Below, in pieces: positions 1,983-40,961 of a stretch of DNA of 64,000 bases. A program made the translations under genes and the position numbers. The DNA lies in NCBI GenBank assembly GCA_040754075.1, contig JBFMDH010000004.1:248001-312000 (forward strand), read 5' to 3'. The stretch comes from Acidobacteriota bacterium. GTDB taxonomy: Bacteria > Acidobacteriota > Blastocatellia > UBA7656. A model generated the notes under the pieces. The model had not been told where the DNA came from, did not search any database, and saw nothing but the letters and a program-made list of their open reading frames with translations. Position 1 is the stretch's first letter, and each line of letters starts with the position of its first letter.

Positions 1983-2336
1983 TTAATTTGTTTCAATCTG
2001 TCTCTCTGGCTTCTTAAGTTCCTCTTGCACACGGCGCTTTTCTTCCAATTCGATAATCAAAGTGATCTTGGCTTTCAATACATCAATCCTTTTCTTAAAT
2101 TCTTGTTGCTCGACTTTTTTCCGTTCTTCTTCAATTTTCTTTCTACGCTGTTTCTCTTCATATTCCTGAAGCTCAACAGGGGACATCTTCTTTTTATCAA
2201 CTAGCATTGCCTCAAAAAGACCACTCATTAATTCACCGGCAAAGTCCTTGCTCTTTAGAGCTTCGAGTCCTTCCAAAACCATACTAAAATCCTGTGGGGT
2301 GAGTTGAAAGAACTCATTTAACTTCTCGTTATCCAT
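1983..2336 (-). CDS. Coiled-coil protein, 117 aa
   Basis: The second half (from about residue 55) is a highly charged heptad-rich coil (YEEKQRRKKIEEERKKVE). The N-terminal half resembles a short helical domain (FFQLTPQDFSMVLEGLEAL). Its start codon overlaps the last codons of the small RHH-like gene at 2329-2478, so the two are probably translationally coupled. A DNA-binding RHH protein followed by a coiled-coil partner is an arrangement seen in segregation and toxin-antitoxin modules, but no such function can be assigned here. Confidence 0.6.
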   Translation of the reverse strand: MDNEKLNEFFQLTPQDFSMVLEGLEALKSKDFAGELMSGLFEAMLVDKKKMSPVELQEYEEKQRRKKIEEERKKVEQQEFKKRIDVLKAKITLIIELEEKRRVQEELKKPERQIETN

Positions 2337-2478
2337 CTTTGTTTCCTTTTTGCCCCTCCATTAATGACTTGATAAATTGGTTCCAAGATAATTTTGATCG
2401 TCGGCGTTTTTCTTTAAGGTCTTCCCAGACAGGATCATCCATCCTAATATGCCTGATTTTGTATTCCTTATTCTTCAT
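2329..2478 (-). CDS. Small ribbon-helix-helix-like DNA-binding protein, 49 aa
   Basis: A short ORF starts at the ATG at 2478 and ends 8 bases inside the next gene. The product reads as a beta strand (YKIRHIRMDD), a helix (VWEDLKEKRRRSK) and a second helix (WNQFIKSLME), the order of the ribbon-helix-helix fold of Arc/CopG-type repressors. It has the right length for a complete RHH protein. It directly follows the structured non-coding region, so it may be translated from the same transcript. No Shine-Dalgarno sequence is visible. Confidence 0.6.
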   Translation of the reverse strand: MKNKEYKIRHIRMDDPVWEDLKEKRRRSKLSWNQFIKSLMEGQKGNKDG

Positions 2479-2560
2479 AAGTGTGGACACGAATTGTGGT
2501 CACTGTTCCCCCTCATTCCTTTCCTCTCTCCCGACCCAAGAATGGTGCTGGCGGTGGATG

Positions 2561-2575
2561 TCCTGTGGACAAGTC
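2561..2575 (+). promoter_or_regulatory. DnaA-box-like repeat, copy near the ncRNA 3' end
   Basis: TCCTGTGGACAAGTC differs by two bases from the CCCTGTGGACAACTC word found at 12,097 (inverted), 32,993 and 35,525 (inverted). Its core TGTGGACAA is the complement of TTGTCCACA, a DnaA-box variant. It lies between the last helix of the structured RNA region and the RHH gene, whose product could be one candidate reader of the repeat. Confidence 0.45.
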
Positions 2576-2613
2576 TGAGAAGCCCTAAGATTCTTGAATA
2601 TAAACGCCGATTT

Positions 2614-3480
2614 TTAATAACAAGTCGCTCGGACTATCTAAGCGATACGTCCCCTTTCTTATACGTCTTAGTCTCTATCTCAACATTTTCGGTACCAAAA
2701 AATGTTGTTTAGTGGACTGATGGGGTGCCTGGCAATATCGGGTCAATTCCCAGTCAAGGATAGTCCTGTCGAGTTGTTATTAAGTTTTTAAGGCGCTTGG
2801 GTACGGTGTCGAGTTGGATTTATCGGGGGAGAGTCATAGACTCTATGCTGCTGGCGGTAGGATTTGCGCCTACGGGATTACGCTTCCCCACTCGGTGTTT
2901 AGCCACACCAGCAACATACAATTTATGATTCGATCCGCCGATATTCTTTCGGGTCTTATTTTTGGTCCCTGTTAATTCAGGTTGCACCCTCGGCTTATTC
3001 TCAATAGCTTCCAACGGCGAGGCACATTCTTTAGATTCGCTGGTGTAGGGAGGCTTTGCTTTATCCGCTACGTTTCATTGTATACAATCCGCGTAACTGC
3101 AAAACCTCTTGGTACCAAACGCCCACATCAACGAATCTATTTTTAATCTCACCGTGGAAAGTTAGAGAGCAAAAAACTAGGGGGTAGGGTTAGACCTACA
3201 GAGCAATGGTCTCGATACTTACACTCGGCTTAGTATTCTACCTCTTGCAAGTAAGGTATAAGCCTCGTCCGCATACTGGTGCACCAGCTCTTGCTTAACG
3301 GTGTTGCGGCTCACTGTCCGCCACCCCTAGTTTCTTGCTTGGAGTGAATCCCAGCCAAAGCTGGAAGTCCACATAAGTTGTGGGAGCGACCCACTCCAAA
3401 CAAAAAACCCTTGGCTTAGAATTGGCTGACCTGCTACGGATACAGACCAACCCTAAACAAAGGGTTCTTAATGTAGCAGG
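2614..3480 (-). ncRNA. Candidate giant structured phage RNA
   Basis: About 1.09 kb (2,479-3,566) lacks a convincing gene but is full of perfect helices. Examples, minus strand: 3480-3473/3437-3430 (8 bp, with an inner 6-bp hairpin); 3401-3392/3346-3337 (10 bp); 3364-3360/3355-3351; 3333-3324/3183-3174 (10 bp) closing a multi-hairpin domain with 3264-3259/3232-3227; 3138-3121 with 3050-3032 enclosing 3107-3099/3059-3051; 2918-2906/2856-2844 (13 bp); 2783-2774/2623-2614 (10 bp) plus 2766-2759/2638-2631 (8 bp) enclosing a 9-bp hairpin at 2707-2681. At least five pairs are G-U only when read on the minus strand, which sets the orientation. Size, phage setting and tRNA-like domain recall GOLLD and ROOL RNAs; homology is not shown. 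Confidence 0.6.
2844..2918 (-). other. tRNA-like domain inside the structured RNA
   Basis: A 13-bp closing helix (2918-2906 with 2856-2844, two G-U pairs) is continuous with a 5-bp stem and 7-nt loop (GTAGG, CGCAAAT, CCTAC; 2873-2857). This is the acceptor/T-arm stacking of a tRNA. The T-loop lacks TTC, the D-arm region (GGTGTGGCTAAACACC) folds as its own hairpin, and the middle arm has no normal anticodon loop. It therefore looks like a tRNA mimic or a degenerate tRNA rather than a working one. Confidence 0.45.
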
Positions 3481-3517
3481 ATTTCGTGTGTGGTTTGAAA
3501 AGGACTAACGCTTTCCT

Positions 3518-3562
3518 ACATCATGACAGATATATGAAATCCGTCAATGGCAGTTATCCACA
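3518..3562 (-). promoter_or_regulatory. Promoter with DnaA box upstream of the structured RNA
   Basis: On the minus strand a perfect DnaA box (TTATCCACA on plus, 3554-3562) is followed after a few bases by CATTGACGG, giving a -35 TTGACG at 3547-3542. The best -10 at 17-18 bases spacing is weak (TGATGT, 3523-3518). The box-then-CATTGAC layout repeats at 6166-6189, supporting a shared phage promoter class. Transcription would enter the first RNA hairpin at 3480. Confidence 0.45.
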
Positions 3563-3566
3563 AGGA

Positions 3567-3824
3567 TTAATCCCAGTTTAATTCTCTCGGTCTGACCAGG
3601 GTTTCATCATCATACCCAGAAAATTCCCGCATTAAGAATTCTGAAAATTCAGTTCCCGAAGTAAGTAGTATAGCTCCTGCTTTGTCGAGTTCCGGTTGCT
3701 CGTTCGGATCACCTACCCTTCCCAAGATTTGGTTTACATCTTTGGTATTAAAGAGAATCCCTCCGTCTGGCAAGGTGACATACCGAAGGCGTTCCCCATT
3801 AAACTTAGTAACCTGTATTTGCAT
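3567..3824 (-). CDS. Small BRO-N-like phage regulatory protein, 85 aa
   Basis: The N-terminal 40 residues (MQIQVTKFNGERLRYVTL, then GILFNTKDVNQILG) resemble the start of BRO-N/antirepressor domains, where a beta hairpin is followed by a 'KDVxxxLG' helix. The protein is shorter than the usual BRO-N domain and may be a reduced version. The start is the ATG at 3824, chosen because AAGGAGG sits seven bases upstream; the longer reading from 3857 lacks this. It lies immediately downstream of the XRE regulator gene, with which it forms a two-gene unit. Confidence 0.55.
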   Translation of the reverse strand: MQIQVTKFNGERLRYVTLPDGGILFNTKDVNQILGRVGDPNEQPELDKAGAILLTSGTEFSEFLMREFSGYDDETLVRPRELNWD

Positions 3825-3853
3825 AGTGTCCTCCTTGCCACAGTATATCATTT

Positions 3854-4090
3854 TCACTTTTCCACAAGCTGCTTAATTATCTTTACAGGATCGGCTTCCA
3901 GTGCCTTGACTATATCAAGGAATTCAATAACATCCAGCCTGCGCTCTCCTAACTCATACTTAGCGACGAACGAATGAGCCGTGTTTAGCTTTGAAGCCAG
4001 TTCTCTCTGGGAAAGCCCTTGGGCCTGCCGTGCGTTAATCAGTAAGGAAATAAGAGTTTGATACCGCTCGGTGAAGACGGATTTTGTCAT
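3854..4090 (-). CDS. XRE-family helix-turn-helix regulator, 78 aa
   Basis: A single HTH_3 domain fills most of the protein: ARQAQGLSQRELASKLN is the helix-turn segment, and VAKYELGERRLDVIEFLDIV is the recognition helix and tail typical of Cro/C1-type repressors. It is followed at once by the BRO-like gene. A lipoprotein gene with its own promoter diverges on the opposite side. As the only clear C1-like regulator in the window, it is a candidate for a phage repressor, though it could equally be the antitoxin-like half of a small module with the downstream gene. Confidence 0.8.
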   Translation of the reverse strand: MTKSVFTERYQTLISLLINARQAQGLSQRELASKLNTAHSFVAKYELGERRLDVIEFLDIVKALEADPVKIIKQLVEK

Positions 4091-4115
4091 CCATAGAAAA
4101 TAGAACTCAATTCGT

Positions 4116-4144
4116 TTGCTCTCAAAATGGAAGCAGGGTATACT
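4116..4144 (+). promoter_or_regulatory. Sigma70-like promoter of the lipoprotein gene
   Basis: TTGCTC (4116-4121) and TATACT (4139-4144) are separated by exactly 17 bases, 28 bases before the lipoprotein start codon. It faces away from the XRE gene, so the lipoprotein has its own transcription unit, as expected of a moron gene. Confidence 0.55.
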
Positions 4145-4172
4145 CCGATAAAACTAGAAAGGCGGACCCTTT

Positions 4173-4769
4173 ATGTTTAAAGCAATTAGTGCTGCGCTGT
4201 TGTTGCTATCGGTTTGGGCGTGCGGTACGGAATTTGACAGAAATTCAAATATTGGGAATTCTAGACCAGCTAATGTCTCAGTGACTAATTCCTCCCCTTC
4301 GCAAAATTCCAACTCAAGATCATCCAAAGAAGAAACAATTCTTTCCTGGGATGAATATTATTTAGAACAGGCGAAGAAACAGGCTGAAGCGTATTGGAAG
4401 AGGCATCTAATCCAATGCGGGGGTTCCTATTTTATCTCAGAGAAGAGAGGTGTCTATACAAATTATTATCAAATGAAAGGCGATCCCAATTTTAATGTTG
4501 AAGGTAGGTATTATCCGTCTAAGAATCTGACACAGGCAGAGAAGTTAAACGGTGTTGATCCGCAGCCGTATGAGTGGCGCGGAAAGGCAATGGTAACGTT
4601 TAGTGCCGGAAGATCATGTAATGCCCCTGGCAAGGATCAGGGGATGTGGCGAGACGATTACACTATTCGCGTTAATGTTGACTCGAAGAAAGGTAAATGG
4701 GAGATTCGCTATGAGCCATACGTGAGCCTTATACCAATCAAGTGTGCTGATGTTCCGTGCGAAAAATAA
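4173..4769 (+). CDS. Predicted secreted lipoprotein, 198 aa
   Basis: The protein opens with a hydrophobic signal and a lipobox (LLLLSVWAC, Cys17), so it should be exported and lipid-anchored. A Ser/Asn-rich linker (residues about 25-55) leads to a folded domain with two Cys pairs (CGG, CNAPG, CADVPC). I do not recognise the domain. It stands alone on the plus strand between minus-strand phage genes, with its own promoter at 4116-4144 and a GC-rich, Shine-Dalgarno-like AAAGGCGG upstream. That is the pattern of a moron expressed from the lysogen, possibly altering the host envelope; this last point is inference. Confidence 0.75.
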   Translation: MFKAISAALLLLSVWACGTEFDRNSNIGNSRPANVSVTNSSPSQNSNSRSSKEETILSWDEYYLEQAKKQAEAYWKRHLIQCGGSYFISEKRGVYTNYYQMKGDPNFNVEGRYYPSKNLTQAEKLNGVDPQPYEWRGKAMVTFSAGRSCNAPGKDQGMWRDDYTIRVNVDSKKGKWEIRYEPYVSLIPIKCADVPCEK

Positions 4770-4822: not shown

Positions 4823-6118
4823 TTAATTGCTTTCTGCGTCGCCAAACGGTCTATATTCTTTTCGCTTTGATATGGAGTATCGTTGCCGGTAATAGTATTG
4901 TTTCCCCCCAATACTCTCGTAGGTAATCTGTGGTAGTACTTCAACCTTTATTTCCTCGTTGTGAATCTTGAGGGAATAATCTCCTCTTAAAGTGATGGAG
5001 AATTTCTGCATTTGCTTATCTTCAAGAACTGGTGAACCATCCGTGCTTTGATGAATAACTTCCCCATTGCTGTACACAGTCCAAGATACTTTGATATTCC
5101 TTGCTGTAAATCCTCCACTGTTCTTGATAGCTACCTCAAAAGCTATTTCTGATGAGTTACTATGGCCACCTAATCCAAGTATATGCACATAGGGTCTATT
5201 AACCTCACTCTGAGATTTTCTGGTAGCACCTGTAAATTGCCGATTAAACTCACGGTTTATTTCATTAATCTTTGGGACTAAATCTCCGTCGAAATTTAGT
5301 ACGTGAATACCATGATCCTGCAACAAGAGCTGTCCAGCGCCTTGAATATCGGGGTTTCTATCAAGTGTCCCGATAAAAACTGTCTTAATACCTCTCTCAA
5401 TAACCCTGTTTGCACAGGGAACTTTATGGCTGCTACGAGTGGTGCAAGGTTCTAAAGTGGTAAAGAGTGTTGCTCCTACAAGTTCCTGATCGGCCAGCTT
5501 CTTTTCAAATAGCGTAAACTCTGCGTGGTCTCCTGGCCTTATTTCGCCACGATACGCCTCTCCTAAAATGGCTCCATCACGAACGATCACGGCTCCGACT
5601 TTCGGGGAGATTTTGCCCGGTTCGCTTATGCAGTTTCGGGCAAGCTCTATGGCCCTGAGCATAAACTCTCTATCCTTGTTGTGACTCTTCATTCGCAACT
5701 CAGACTTTTTCACTTCCAGCAACAGCGTTTGCCGTGCTGCACGGTTTATCTGGTCAAGTTTATGCAATGAACTCGCGGAAGGATCGCCGCCGATACGATT
5801 CTTGATACTGACGACTATATTTTCACGACTCGACTCCAACCTCTCACCAAAATCGTTTACATCATCTAGCTCTAGTTTTAATTCATGCTGTTCGTATGCC
5901 TCAACTAAACATTCAATGCGGGCATCTACTATCTTTTGCCAGCGTTCAAGGATCGTGTTAGCGAGGGCTTGATTTAAGACACCACTCTCTCCGAAACCTC
6001 TGCGAACAAAGTCAGCCTGTACTCGATCCATCTCAGGTGTAAACCACGCTTCGATGTCTCTAACCCGTTTTCCAAGGGCTAGGTCACAGTAGCTTTTAGC
6101 CTCATCGGTTAGTTTCAT
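4823..6118 (-). CDS. RibD/dCMP-type deaminase domain protein, 431 aa
   Basis: The centre carries a zinc-dependent deaminase site: HAEFTLFEK supplies the His and Glu, and [19 protein letters not shown] supplies the PCx8C pair; [14 protein letters not shown] follows as in RibD-like enzymes. The N-terminal part is helical (residues 1 to about 150) and the C-terminal 130 residues look like an Ig-like beta domain ([20 protein letters not shown]). That three-part layout is not a standard riboflavin enzyme. The ATG at 6118 is preferred because the upstream extension would run through the plus-strand promoter at 6184-6211. Target (nucleotide or nucleic acid) is unknown. Confidence 0.7.
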
Positions 6119-6165
6119 AATGGCAAAAATGTTAGCAGAAAATCTCCTGTGATTGGAGAGCTTTC

Positions 6166-6211
6166 CCCTGTGGAAAACCCTCATTGACAGTTCATGTGCG
6201 TTTGCTATGCT
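6166..6211 (+). promoter_or_regulatory. Early-operon promoter with DnaA-box-like operator
   Basis: CCCTGTGGAAAACCC (6166-6180) is a variant of the repeated 15-mer. Three bases later comes TTGACA (6184-6189), then a 16-base spacer and TATGCT (6206-6211). This near-consensus promoter points at the 6,348-7,786 operon. The CATTGACAG block is shared with 32,976-32,984 and, with one change, 3,541-3,549. Confidence 0.65.
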
Positions 6212-6347
6212 GACCTTAGATTGATTGGACCAATCTGAAATCATCCTTTTGTATATACCCCCGTCAGTGGTCCAATCACTGCCGGGGTTTTCGTATGCTA
6301 GGGTCGAGGCATACTCCTACCTAATCATTAAATAGAAATCCAAATCT

Positions 6348-36662: not shown

Positions 36663-38007
36663 TGAGTAAATCGTCTACGTCTAGGTATGTACTTTCATTA
36701 TACAGTGCTTCCAAATAAGGCTTGGTATCCACTTCAATATCAGGCACGTTCGGTATCTTGATTAGCGCCGGGTCCATCTTCGACAGTTTAATAACGGCGT
36801 GCTGCTTCCTGATCTGAGACAGGGCATAGGAAACGTCCCGGTCAGCCAGCGCACCGCCATAGAACATCTTGACCACCTTTAAGCGGTCATCAGGGTTTGG
36901 AATATTAAAAGCGACTTTCAGCTTACAAAGATTCAATACCGCATCCAATACCGCTTTATCCTCAAACTGACCAAAGTATTGATGGGCGATAATGACAGCT
37001 AATCCGCTCTTTCGTTTATATGCCAAAAGGTTTGCCAGCTTCTGTGTGGCATACTGCCCAGCCTCGTCAATGTAGAGATAATACCGGCCTTTCCAGCCGT
37101 GATCCCGCAGCCGGTCTATCGAATCCACAATCTCATTGATAATCGTCGTACCTAAAAGTTTGGCGTGTATCGGCTCAAAGCCTGCGCCTGAGTACAGATT
37201 CACTAATACCACCCAGCCCTGAGATATTAAGTCGGTGAATTTGATTCCTTCCTTTGTTCCAAACATCAGTTCAAGCGTCGGGTGCTGATAGACCTCCAAT
37301 CGCCTGAGCGTGGACTGAAGCTCATTTAGATACATCGCCCTAGAATTAAAAACCTCTTCAAGCGCCAGTCTATGCCTGTCCATTTCATCGGACTGTTCCA
37401 GTATTGTTTTCCGCTCCCTGATGTAGAGAGGATCAGAGAAGTATTTGGCTTCCCTGATAGTCATTCCCGCGTTCCACAGTAAAGACAGAATAGCCGTCAG
37501 GTAACGCTGAATCCTCGGAGTCTCGGACTGATCTTTATTACCAAAGGTAGTTTGAATGGCATCCCGAACATTCGATACTGAGGCTTCCTTATTTCCTTGT
37601 AGCGGGTTTATAGGAACAATTTTGTTGTAGTCATACCTAGAGGCCGGATCAATCAATAAAACCTTCTTGTGGCCGACTTTGGCGCAGTAGGCGAGGATTT
37701 TATAAACCGTATCGCCGCCGTCTGAGGAATCTAAAAAACACAGTCCATTTCCCCGGTCTATATCTTCCCGTACTAGGTGTTCTAAGAATCTGGATTTGCC
37801 TTCGCCAGTCGTGCCAATGATGTGCATATGCTCGCCGCGTTCTTCTTCGGAGAGCAATACCTGAGTAGATTCATTCTCGCCTAATAGCCGTAGCTTGTAC
37901 TTGGAATTTGCCTGCTTCCACATTTCGGCGGAAGTCTGTTCGGCTTTCGGAAAACGAAAGTCTTCCTCCTTTGAATTGCCACTGAGTTTCTTATACCAGT
38001 CGGTCAA
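36439..38007 (-). CDS. VirD4/HerA-type conjugation-like ATPase, 522 aa
   Basis: Walker A is GTTGEGKS (residues 65-72), in HMHIIGTTGEGKSRFLEHL. Walker B is YYLYIDEAGQY near residue 313, followed by KRKSGLAVIIAHQYFGQF, the sensor region of TraG/VirD4 and HerA motors. No N-terminal membrane helices are present, unlike classical coupling proteins. The last 75 residues are polar and disordered and are encoded in the stretch shared with the downstream gene. It would pump or translocate DNA, with the replication-relaxation protein as the likely partner. Confidence 0.85.
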   Translation of the reverse strand: MTDWYKKLSGNSKEEDFRFPKAEQTSAEMWKQANSKYKLRLLGENESTQVLLSEEERGEHMHIIGTTGEGKSRFLEHLVREDIDRGNGLCFLDSSDGGDTVYKILAYCAKVGHKKVLLIDPASRYDYNKIVPINPLQGNKEASVSNVRDAIQTTFGNKDQSETPRIQRYLTAILSLLWNAGMTIREAKYFSDPLYIRERKTILEQSDEMDRHRLALEEVFNSRAMYLNELQSTLRRLEVYQHPTLELMFGTKEGIKFTDLISQGWVVLVNLYSGAGFEPIHAKLLGTTIINEIVDSIDRLRDHGWKGRYYLYIDEAGQYATQKLANLLAYKRKSGLAVIIAHQYFGQFEDKAVLDAVLNLCKLKVAFNIPNPDDRLKVVKMFYGGALADRDVSYALSQIRKQHAVIKLSKMDPALIKIPNVPDIEVDTKPYLEALYNESTYLDVDDLLNEQRKRFEGQDTVRAERGTKPNRRTANKVDGSKAGYRKKSPQSPVGQEADNSQADSGLTPEQKKRFEDLFLETK

Positions 38008-38783
38008 AGCAGTTCTCCAAGTTCCTTAATCTTTCGGCTATAAGTATTCATCTCGTTTTTCAATCTCTTTACCTCTGCCTTGTCATACGGGGTCGTTGCA
38101 TTATCCTTCATCTCGTAATAGACCTTCATTGTTTTGGAAAGCTCGGACTGAAGCCGCTGATACATTCTAAGATTATGGGTGGTTTTGTATTCGTGCATCA
38201 TTCGGTCAAGCGCAGCCTCGCGCTCCTTCATCTCGGCTTCAAGCACTCTCATTCTCTGGTGCTTACTAACTTCAATATCAGCAAGCCGCTCGGCTTCCTT
38301 CATCCGTAGGTCGCTCTTGTGATCGCGCAAGGCAATCTTCTTATCAATCTCAAGCTGCATCAAAAGGGCTTGCTGGTATGTCTCAACGGTCATCCCTTGA
38401 CGGGTAGCAAGCTCGGTGACTATCGCGTGATTTCGACTTAATACAACTTCAAGCTCATGCCTGACCTTAACTAAAGTGGCTTCTCCTTGCAGCTTTATTG
38501 CTTCAACTGCCAGATGAATTTCATCATTCAATACCGTTAATAACCGCCCTCGTCCTGCGGATTTCCTCCGCTGCCAGAAGGACGTAAAAACACCACGGTC
38601 GGGGTGATACTTTTGAAGTATCTCGCCAATCTGGTCAAACATAGGGTCGGGGTCTAATGAATACTCAACGTACTTATTAGGATATTTAGCCCGTATTAGT
38701 CGGCCAACCTCAGCATCATCCATATTCCCATATTGGGAATATTTAGATTTCACTAATGCCCCTAACTCATCAACGGTCTTCAT
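38004..38783 (-). CDS. Coiled-coil protein with N-terminal helical domain, 259 aa
   Basis: The N-terminal 45 residues (LGALVKSKYSQYGNMDDAEV, then LIRAKYP) match a short helical motif common in phage and mobile-element proteins. The rest is long coiled coil (IALRDHKSDLRMKEAERLAD). It overlaps the ATPase start by four bases (ATGA), so the two are coupled. It could be a structural partner of the motor. Confidence 0.6.
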   Translation of the reverse strand: MKTVDELGALVKSKYSQYGNMDDAEVGRLIRAKYPNKYVEYSLDPDPMFDQIGEILQKYHPDRGVFTSFWQRRKSAGRGRLLTVLNDEIHLAVEAIKLQGEATLVKVRHELEVVLSRNHAIVTELATRQGMTVETYQQALLMQLEIDKKIALRDHKSDLRMKEAERLADIEVSKHQRMRVLEAEMKEREAALDRMMHEYKTTHNLRMYQRLQSELSKTMKVYYEMKDNATTPYDKAEVKRLKNEMNTYSRKIKELGELL

Positions 38784-38906
38784 TTATTTCCTCAGAATAC
38801 CCAGCGGGTCATCATCATCTTCATCAACCATCGGCCTATCTTCACTCTTGATAAAGATATAAACCGCCAAAACAACTATTACGACGCCGATGATTATATA
38901 AGTCAT
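38784..38906 (-). CDS. Single-span membrane micro-protein, 40 aa
   Basis: One membrane helix (YIIIGVVIVVLAVYIFI) followed by a very acidic tail (DRPMVDEDDDDPLGILRK). The ATG at 38906 is favoured because AGAGG stands at the right distance. Its stop is adjacent to the coiled-coil start (TAAATG). It belongs to the ATPase operon, so it may anchor that complex to the membrane, by inference. Confidence 0.55.
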   Translation of the reverse strand: MTYIIIGVVIVVLAVYIFIKSEDRPMVDEDDDDPLGILRK

Positions 38907-40065: not shown

Positions 40066-40134
40066 AAGTAACCCGCAGGCGGGATTATACCTAATTGACA
40101 AGGGGTGTTAGAATAGCGTTTTTGAGGAGTACCT

Positions 40135-40338
40135 ATGGATACGCCACTGAGACGGAAATACGAAGAAGAGCTAAAGGAACTAAAGACACAAGCTGATACA
40201 TTTCACAAACTCCTGAATAAAGATCCGCTTCCTAGAAACTGGTATCAAGAATTCAAGAATCTCCAAGCATTAGCGAGGGCGTTGAACGAAACTGAGAAAA
40301 TGAAACAGACGGAAGAAGATATAATCAAGAGCCGTTGA
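40135..40338 (+). CDS. Small coiled-coil protein, 67 aa
   Basis: Charged helical protein (LRRKYEEELKELKTQADTFH, then LQALARALNETEKMK). GAGGAG precedes the ATG. It is divergent from the GH16 gene and is the last gene before the attachment site, the place where an integrase or excisionase is often found. It has no recombinase features, and an excisionase-like role is only a guess. Confidence 0.6.
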   Translation: MDTPLRRKYEEELKELKTQADTFHKLLNKDPLPRNWYQEFKNLQALARALNETEKMKQTEEDIIKSR

Positions 40339-40391
40339 TAAAATGTACCCAAAAACGTACCCACAAGGCGTGGGGAAAAGGCGCAAAAATA

Positions 40392-40418
40392 AGGCATCTT
40401 TCTTGAGCTAAGATGCCT
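40392..40418. terminator. Hairpin terminator next to the attachment site
   Basis: AGGCATCTT and AAGATGCCT pair perfectly around a 9-base loop. The minus strand has a TTATTTTT run after it and the plus strand CGGTTTT, so it can stop transcription both ways and insulate the prophage end. Confidence 0.65.
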
Positions 40419-40476
40419 CGGTTTTGGTAAGTGTTTTATTGCTGATAACTTAGCCGAAATTAGGAGAAGACGATGA

Positions 40477-40523
<47 letters not shown>

Positions 40524-40531
40524 TTAAATAA

Positions 40532-40561
40532 AAAGCCGTCCTTCGGGGCGGCTTTCGTGTT
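40532..40561 (+). terminator. tRNA terminator
   Basis: AAAGCCGTCC, TTCG, GGGCGGCTTT with one G-U pair fitting plus, followed after CGTG by a run of T. It is the natural terminator of the tRNA-Asp gene, left behind with the 3' half. Confidence 0.85.
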
Positions 40562-40641
40562 TTTTAAGAATTCGATTTAGCTTTTGAGCTTGTCCGCTTA
40601 TTTTCGGATTTCCTTACAGCGACTACTAGGACTTTCAGTAG

Positions 40642-40773
40642 CTAGTACACTGGAACCTAAATTTGTTGAGGTTCAGAGTTACGCCTTCAGGCGTGAGAGC
40701 AACGTATATCACGCCTGAAGGCGTAACTCTGAACTCTGAAAAATATCAACTTACTTTGGTTCCAATGTACTAG
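40642..40773. mobile_element. MITE-like palindromic element, 132 bp
   Basis: The ends CTAGTACACTGGAACC and GGTTCCAATGTACTAG are imperfect inverted copies. Inside is a perfect 26-bp inverted repeat (40671-40696 with 40709-40734) around a 12-base loop, itself built on ACGCCTTCAGGCGT. No coding capacity. It lies just beyond the tRNA fragment in the low-GC block. Confidence 0.6.
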
Positions 40774-40922
40774 GAAGTTATCGCTAAAACACATCCCTTT
40801 TTAGCACCGGCATCTAATCGTCCTGTGTGTTGCGGATGTTATCAATGGGATAAAGCAATAAGAGAAAAATCAATTTAATTAGGAGTCAGTGTACGCTTTG
40901 TTACTGTATGATTCCATAAAAG

Positions 40923-40950
40923 AAGCCCTCTCAAAAACGGAAGGGCTTTA
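40923..40950. terminator. Terminator after the HEPN-motif gene
   Basis: AAGCCCT and AGGGCTT with a short loop, followed by CTTTTA on minus and TTTAAATTTT on plus. It would end transcripts of the 40,962-42,446 gene. Confidence 0.6.
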
Positions 40951-40961
40951 AATTTTAATAT

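Follow-up and report, generated by a model that had tools for sequence, protein, structure and literature searches.

A strongly folded non-coding region in an Acidobacteriota prophage as a candidate for a large structured RNA of no known family

Introduction

Do phages carry giant structured RNAs beyond those already classified? To our knowledge, two families of giant phage RNA are known, GOLLD and ROOL, and an unrelated third one would help to show whether phages in general make use of large structured RNAs. Both families form cages, the use of which is unknown (PMC12286853).

The question is raised anew by about 1 kb of DNA (positions 2490-3540, minus strand) in an Acidobacteriota genome of 7.58 Mb, situated in the 64,000-nucleotide stretch analysed here as a whole (the window; C4:248001-312000). 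A preliminary description, made from the letters of the window, had proposed that this region specifies a giant, richly folded non-coding phage RNA. The analysis presented below provides good support for a strongly folded non-coding prophage region. Our best reading, to which we assign a probability of about 0.5, is that it encodes a standalone large structured non-coding phage RNA of no known family with a scaffold-like role, the transcription, strand and ends of which are putative.

The region lies in a prophage

Two copies of a 47-bp exact repeat, one of them the end of a tRNA-Asp gene, delimit a span of 42,826 bp (42.8 kb) in which an integrase gene adjoins the tRNA-Asp and which also encodes a single-strand-binding-type protein, a DNA methylase, a major head protein and a terminase. 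Because the tRNA-Asp repeat bounds such a set of genes, the element is considered a prophage. Some 3.6 kb from the integrase gene, the region is flanked by an XRE regulator gene and an orphan ORF on one side and by a small RHH-like ORF on the other, all on the minus strand. The neighbours named in the preliminary description thus stand in part: the XRE gene (3854-4090) is confirmed, the ORF 3567-3857, called BRO, matches neither Pfam nor PHROG families at E≤0.01, and the RHH-like ORF (2329-2490) has a VAPB_antitox match below the cut-off (E 0.0073). Elsewhere on the same strand of the prophage (window 4823-6244), a 473-aa protein with a cytidine/deoxycytidylate deaminase domain is encoded.

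Relatives of these genes were sought in other genomes and in viruses. Three integrase relatives (63-65% identity) were found in genome contigs, all from Acidobacteriota assemblies, in keeping with an acidobacterial host, and with the RNA absent beside them, and none in viral contigs. The single-strand-binding protein has one viral relative and 30 distant phage records, and terminase relatives are encoded by 241 viral stretches (up to 70% identical) and, at E≤1e-40, by none of the 395 other genomes of the phylum. No viral relatives were found for the neighbours at 3567-3857 and 1983-2336, nor did phages or a further 161 genomes of the class yield one for the former.

As had been claimed at the outset, the kilobase itself holds no convincing ORF. 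Its longest minus-strand ORF has 64 aa and a TTG start. Nine ORFs of at least 40 aa overlap 2490-3540; the eight that were scanned matched nothing in Pfam at E≤1, and their two PHROG matches are weak (E 0.43 and 0.046), i.e. no convincing coding signature. A coding region was rejected on these grounds.

Folding exceeds that of shuffled and neighbouring sequences

Folded as RNA, the minus strand of 2490-3540 reaches -358.8 kcal/mol, compared with a mean of -294.7 kcal/mol (SD 8.1) for 60 dinucleotide shuffles, which corresponds to a z of -7.9; the plus strand has a z of -3.8 against dinucleotide shuffles. The minus-strand value lies beyond all 40 segments of equal length taken elsewhere in the window (mean z -1.2, SD 1.4, range +1.4 to -4.4), a control based on six shuffles per segment with a pooled SD of 8.95, by which the region scores about -7.2, and leaving out the gap 40102-40961. 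The latter, located around the right attachment site, has z values of -7.0/-6.0, for most of which a single hairpin accounts (its tile has a z of -11.7 on one strand and -11.8 on the other), and is read as an ordinary hairpin. Tiles of 160 nt from the region average a z of only -0.9 versus -7.9 for the whole; its stability therefore sits in domains closed over 60-200 nt, which sets it apart from hairpin gaps. By halves, the 5′ half has a z of -7.5 (complement -3.6) and the 3′ half one of -4.0 (complement -2.7).

For comparison, the same method was applied to phage RNA loci outside this genome. The phage K gap 37700-38640, which contains the lnc002 region, gave -6.3 (minus strand) and -2.2 (plus strand), the ICP1 gap -2.5 and -2.4, little better than shuffles, and three ROOL RNAs -4.3, -1.6 and 0.0 (complements -3.5, -4.0 and -1.0). 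The z of the whole region is below all of these, which differ from it in length, but that of its 3′ half does not fall below the value of the best ROOL.

These controls also bear on which strand would be the RNA. Of the four RNAs whose strand is known, two (that of phage K and one ROOL) have the lower z on the RNA strand and the other two on the complement; since z picks the RNA strand in only half of these cases, it is an insecure guide, and the minus strand is a lean rather than a proof. G-U pairs, which had been put forward as evidence for the minus strand, name no strand because they are more frequent in the plus-strand minimum free energy fold (33 of 337 pairs) than in that of the minus strand (25 of 320), and their count was rejected as proof.

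A succession of closed domains

In the probabilistic fold of the minus strand, 27 of the 61 helices have at least 5 bp, and 22 of these have a mean probability of at least 0.7. The expectation of more than ten helices in successive domains is borne out, with 12 helices that reach 8 bp or more and a probability of at least 0.7 distributed over separate domains that follow one another from 3469-3403 to 2798-2602 and that include a three-way and a multi-hairpin junction (Table 1). Near the 5′ end, the first helices face competition from an 8-bp alternative seen by eye (3480-3473/3437-3430).

Table 1. Features of the region and its surroundings (window positions)
Feature	Position	Strand	Details
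Large structured RNA candidate	2490-3540	-	z -7.9 minus/-3.8 plus; no Rfam match; ends putative
Promoter-like site TTGACG-16-CATGAT, TG before second hexamer	3520-3547	-	consensus scan, weak
Domain 1	3403-3469	-	stems 3469-3460/3412-3403 (probability 0.93) and 3458-3447/3425-3414 (1.00)
Domain 2	3339-3399	-	three-way junction: 12-bp stem (0.96) closing two hairpins (0.95, 1.00)
Domain 3	3169-3338	-	15-bp stem (0.84) closing multi-hairpin domain; inner helices 0.5-0.9; inverted repeat I3, 94%
Domain 4, long arm	3032-3139	-	11-, 6-, 10- and 6-bp stems; probabilities 0.99, 0.99, 1.00, 0.74
13-nt bulge with palindrome UUGGUACCAA, candidate contact site	3109-3121	-	self duplex -13.6 kcal/mol
Domain with 13-bp stem, 'tRNA-like' element	2831-2931	-	2918-2906/2856-2844, probability 0.96
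Domain of stacked 7-, 10-, 3- and 8-bp stems	2602-2798	-	0.91-1.00; inverted repeat I1, 84%
Hairpin loop with GGUACC, candidate partner	2691-2697	-	self duplex -8.2 kcal/mol; stem probability 0.83
Repeat UAAGCC(A/G)AG(G/U)GU, copy 1	3407-3418	-	
Repeat UAAGCC(A/G)AG(G/U)GU, copy 2	3221-3232	-	
Repeat UAAGCC(A/G)AG(G/U)GU, copy 3	2986-2997	-	
Attachment-site repeat, prophage right end	40477-40523	+	47-bp exact copy of tRNA-Asp end, C4:245698-245744

Two kinds of short sequence recur within this fold, and the tests on both were made post hoc, the features having been seen first. Three copies of a repeat, all differing from a reference at no more than one position, as in Table 1, appeared in one of 300 shuffles. 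As to the GGUACC palindromes, the bulge 3121-3109 and the loop 2697-2691 can form a predicted duplex of -10.6 kcal/mol. This best duplex between different loops and the best duplex overall (-13.6 kcal/mol) were each equalled by one of 60 shuffles, in a loop test that kept the four best pairs per sequence and may understate the between-loop count; a doubled 6-nt palindrome anywhere in the sequence is common (236 of 300 shuffles). The GGUACC sites could thus be candidates for pairing with each other or between RNA copies, and as palindromes they would permit self-assembly.

Signals at the ends of the region are less telling. The promoter with a DnaA box noted previously proves weak, the promoter-like site being one of six found by the consensus scan where 3.1 were expected, and the DnaA box (TTATCCACA, 3554-3562) being the one site in the window where 0.42 would be expected by chance. 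Were the promoter-like site used, the 5′ end would lie near 3513. No terminator-like sites were found on the minus strand within 2200-4200. The tRNA-like acceptor and T-arm likewise fail to hold up: ARAGORN at its default found no tRNA in the window, and Infernal reported none at E≤5 in 2300-4100. With the threshold set to 70%, ARAGORN calls four or more pseudo-tRNAs within 1.8 kb; one of these covers the 'tRNA-like' element, there on the plus strand. The nearest tRNAs found, the host tRNA-Val and tRNA-Asp, lie about 4.7 kb off, at the attachment site. tRNA, tmRNA and introns, none detected by ARAGORN at its default or by Infernal, were rejected as candidates.

Comparison with known RNA families

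A search with 4227 Rfam models returned no match in the window at gathering thresholds and none in 2300-4100 at E≤5. ROOL (RF03087) was matched neither in the region at E≤5 nor in the genome at E≤10, and the same search exceeded the cut-off in three of five phages, which shows that it works. For GOLLD (RF02032), too, the region is empty at E≤5, and its sole match in the genome scores 14.8 bits on contig C12, where the cut-off is 150; because none of the five phages, a set without a genuine GOLLD, was matched, this search stands without a positive control. The preliminary description, which saw no motif that would place the RNA in either family, is upheld on this point.

There are, nonetheless, resemblances in kind. 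ROOL, which forms an octameric cage, is a large folded RNA of phages and prophages that lacks ORFs and has loop-loop contacts (PMC12286853). The region resembles it in fold, prophage location and want of a convincing ORF, with contacts that are predicted, but differs in its length of about 1 kb versus the 574-position model, in having no Infernal match and in the absence of tRNAs from the window, ROOL often lying near tRNA islands (a usual, not an obligatory, position). Many GOLLD members, according to the same text, exceed 800 nt, reside in prophages and assemble into a 14-mer cage (PMC12286853). Size and prophage location are similar here, but the only match is the one of 14.8 bits on another contig, and again no tRNA lies in the window. 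In OLE RNA, palindromic loops pair between two copies (PMC12286853), as is predicted here, but the window has no Rfam match at gathering thresholds. The region may work like GOLLD and ROOL, and we file it as a member of neither.

Similar in general appearance are two gaps of about 1 kb that are devoid of ORFs and lie outside Rfam, in phage K (L179:37700-38640) and in ICP1 (L180:20098-21108), the RNAs of which match neither RF02032 nor RF03087. According to Table 1 of PMC9241854, lnc002 is transcribed from the minus strand of phage K at 37679-38832, and transcription of both lnc002 and the ICP1 gp139-gp140 RNA was shown (PMC9241854, PMC7567579). Since these expressed RNAs lie outside both Rfam models, present families miss some such RNAs. 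With lnc002 the region has in common an ORF-less gap of about 1 kb and a strong fold, which in lnc002 is on the transcribed strand; it differs from lnc002 and the ICP1 RNA in that those are shown to be transcribed and have no sequence likeness to the region.

No homologues among the genomes and viruses searched

The region is a single copy in its own genome, where it matches only itself. By blastn it gave two chance matches in phages (36 and 30 nt) and none in plasmids or in E. coli genomes. Among 97 relatives, 56 had matches at E≤1, all of 17-59 nt (best E 0.007, over 31 nt), and of the terminase-related virus loci searched (50 of 80), eight had matches of 14-28 nt (best E 0.02); both sets are taken as chance. 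Single-sequence covariance models were built for three parts of the fold (R1, 3029-3143; R2, 2826-2935; R3, 3339-3480). R1 and R3 found only the own genome among 396 genomes and nothing in the 395 others of the phylum, in scans with stricter filters above 40 genomes, and among virus loci (66 and 68 sources, plus further loci) they found only the window, as did R2 among 68 sources. Sequence patterns fared no better in viral contigs: the spaced repeat pair matched once, in a repetitive protein gene, which is ascribed to chance, the palindrome pattern did not match, and a 17-mer pattern occurred, again by chance, in six contigs that gave no model matches, each time within an open frame 100 codons or more in length. 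A narrow search of the open-access literature found no paper on a large structured RNA in an Acidobacteria prophage.

A 'new class' is a possibility drawn from one sequence. What was first proposed survives as a large folded non-coding region of a phage genome that is neither ROOL nor GOLLD by Infernal, and loses its link to tRNAs.

A possible scaffold RNA and its alternatives

In the proposed mechanism, the stretch that separates the XRE-side genes from the RHH-like gene (2490-3540) would give rise, from its minus strand, to a structured non-coding RNA of about 1 kb that would act as RNA and not via a protein. Most probably it would serve as a multi-domain scaffold in which loop contacts hold the arms together, within one molecule or between copies, the best candidates for such contacts being the GGUACC palindromes of bulge 3121-3109 and loop 2697-2691. 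That it assembles into particles as reported for GOLLD and ROOL is speculative and rather unlikely. Equally doubtful is the bolder proposal that the region represents a new giant RNA class of phages which has no sequence relationship with GOLLD or ROOL and forms homo-oligomers via GGUACC loop contacts. If this is true, phages would have invented RNA particles repeatedly, and the GGUACC sites offer a concrete, testable prediction.

Several points speak against a standalone RNA, namely the lack of a homologue in the searches above, the lack of a terminator-like site on the minus strand and the fact that hairpin gaps also score strongly. We rank it first all the same. The second reading is a structured 5′ leader of exceptional length, belonging to the RHH-like gene and the small genes that follow, whose translation it would control or whose message it would protect. 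The region lies on the same strand directly upstream of the RHH-like ORF with no terminator-like site in between, and a G-rich stretch 17-22 bases before the GTG at 2490 can pair (2830-2825/2512-2507, probability 0.46). However, the best-folded part is the distal 5′ half, and usual leaders need far less than a kilobase with several closed domains, which is why we consider a leader unlikely, if ahead of the other rivals. A region that is simply rich in hairpins, dispersed or relict, with no role as one RNA would suit its single copy, the lack of conservation in the genomes and loci searched and the equally strong scores of other phage gaps read as runs of hairpins; long-range stems that close whole domains, and the gulf between tile and whole-region scores, make it improbable.

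Next in order, and improbable too, comes an element that works as DNA, e.g. a replication origin, a packaging site or a regulator array, the inverted repeats of which would also give RNA folds. Such an element would explain the DnaA-box match and a plus strand that also folds below its shuffles, but a single box means little at 0.42 expected, and the closing stems of 11-15 bp across 100-170 nt, together with the better folding of one strand, point to RNA. Least probable of all is a very divergent GOLLD or ROOL beyond the reach of the Rfam models. Size, prophage location and a large multi-domain fold are in its favour, as is the precedent of the phage K and ICP1 RNAs, which have been likened to both families in print and which also miss both models; against it stand the empty searches of the region at E≤5, the absence of ROOL from the genome in a search that succeeded in three of five phages, a GOLLD match far below its cut-off on another contig and the lack of a tRNA in the window.

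ORF-poor gaps in related phages

A scan for ORF-poor gaps in 60 pieces of 38 terminase-related records turned up several further loci. A gap upstream of an integrase gene and on its strand, in a viral contig with a related terminase (L112:5990-6570; G170, IMGVR_UViG_3300025912_000006), contains many short hairpins, with z -2.9/-3.4, no 9-mer in common with the region, no phage match and no Rfam match above gathering. Beside an integrase-like gene, L117:867-2148 (G166) reaches z -12.6/-9.4 on the two strands (10 shuffles) and is read as a run of hairpins, several of them terminator-like, with small ORFs. Three other gaps, also from phages with related terminases and unmatched in Rfam at gathering, have z values of -5.3 (L165:5300-6518), -4.5 (L169:2462-3500) and -4.3 (L166:1889-2790). 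Lastly, five matches to the CRISPR-DR38 repeat lie in a viral contig at L142:3675-4004 (G188).
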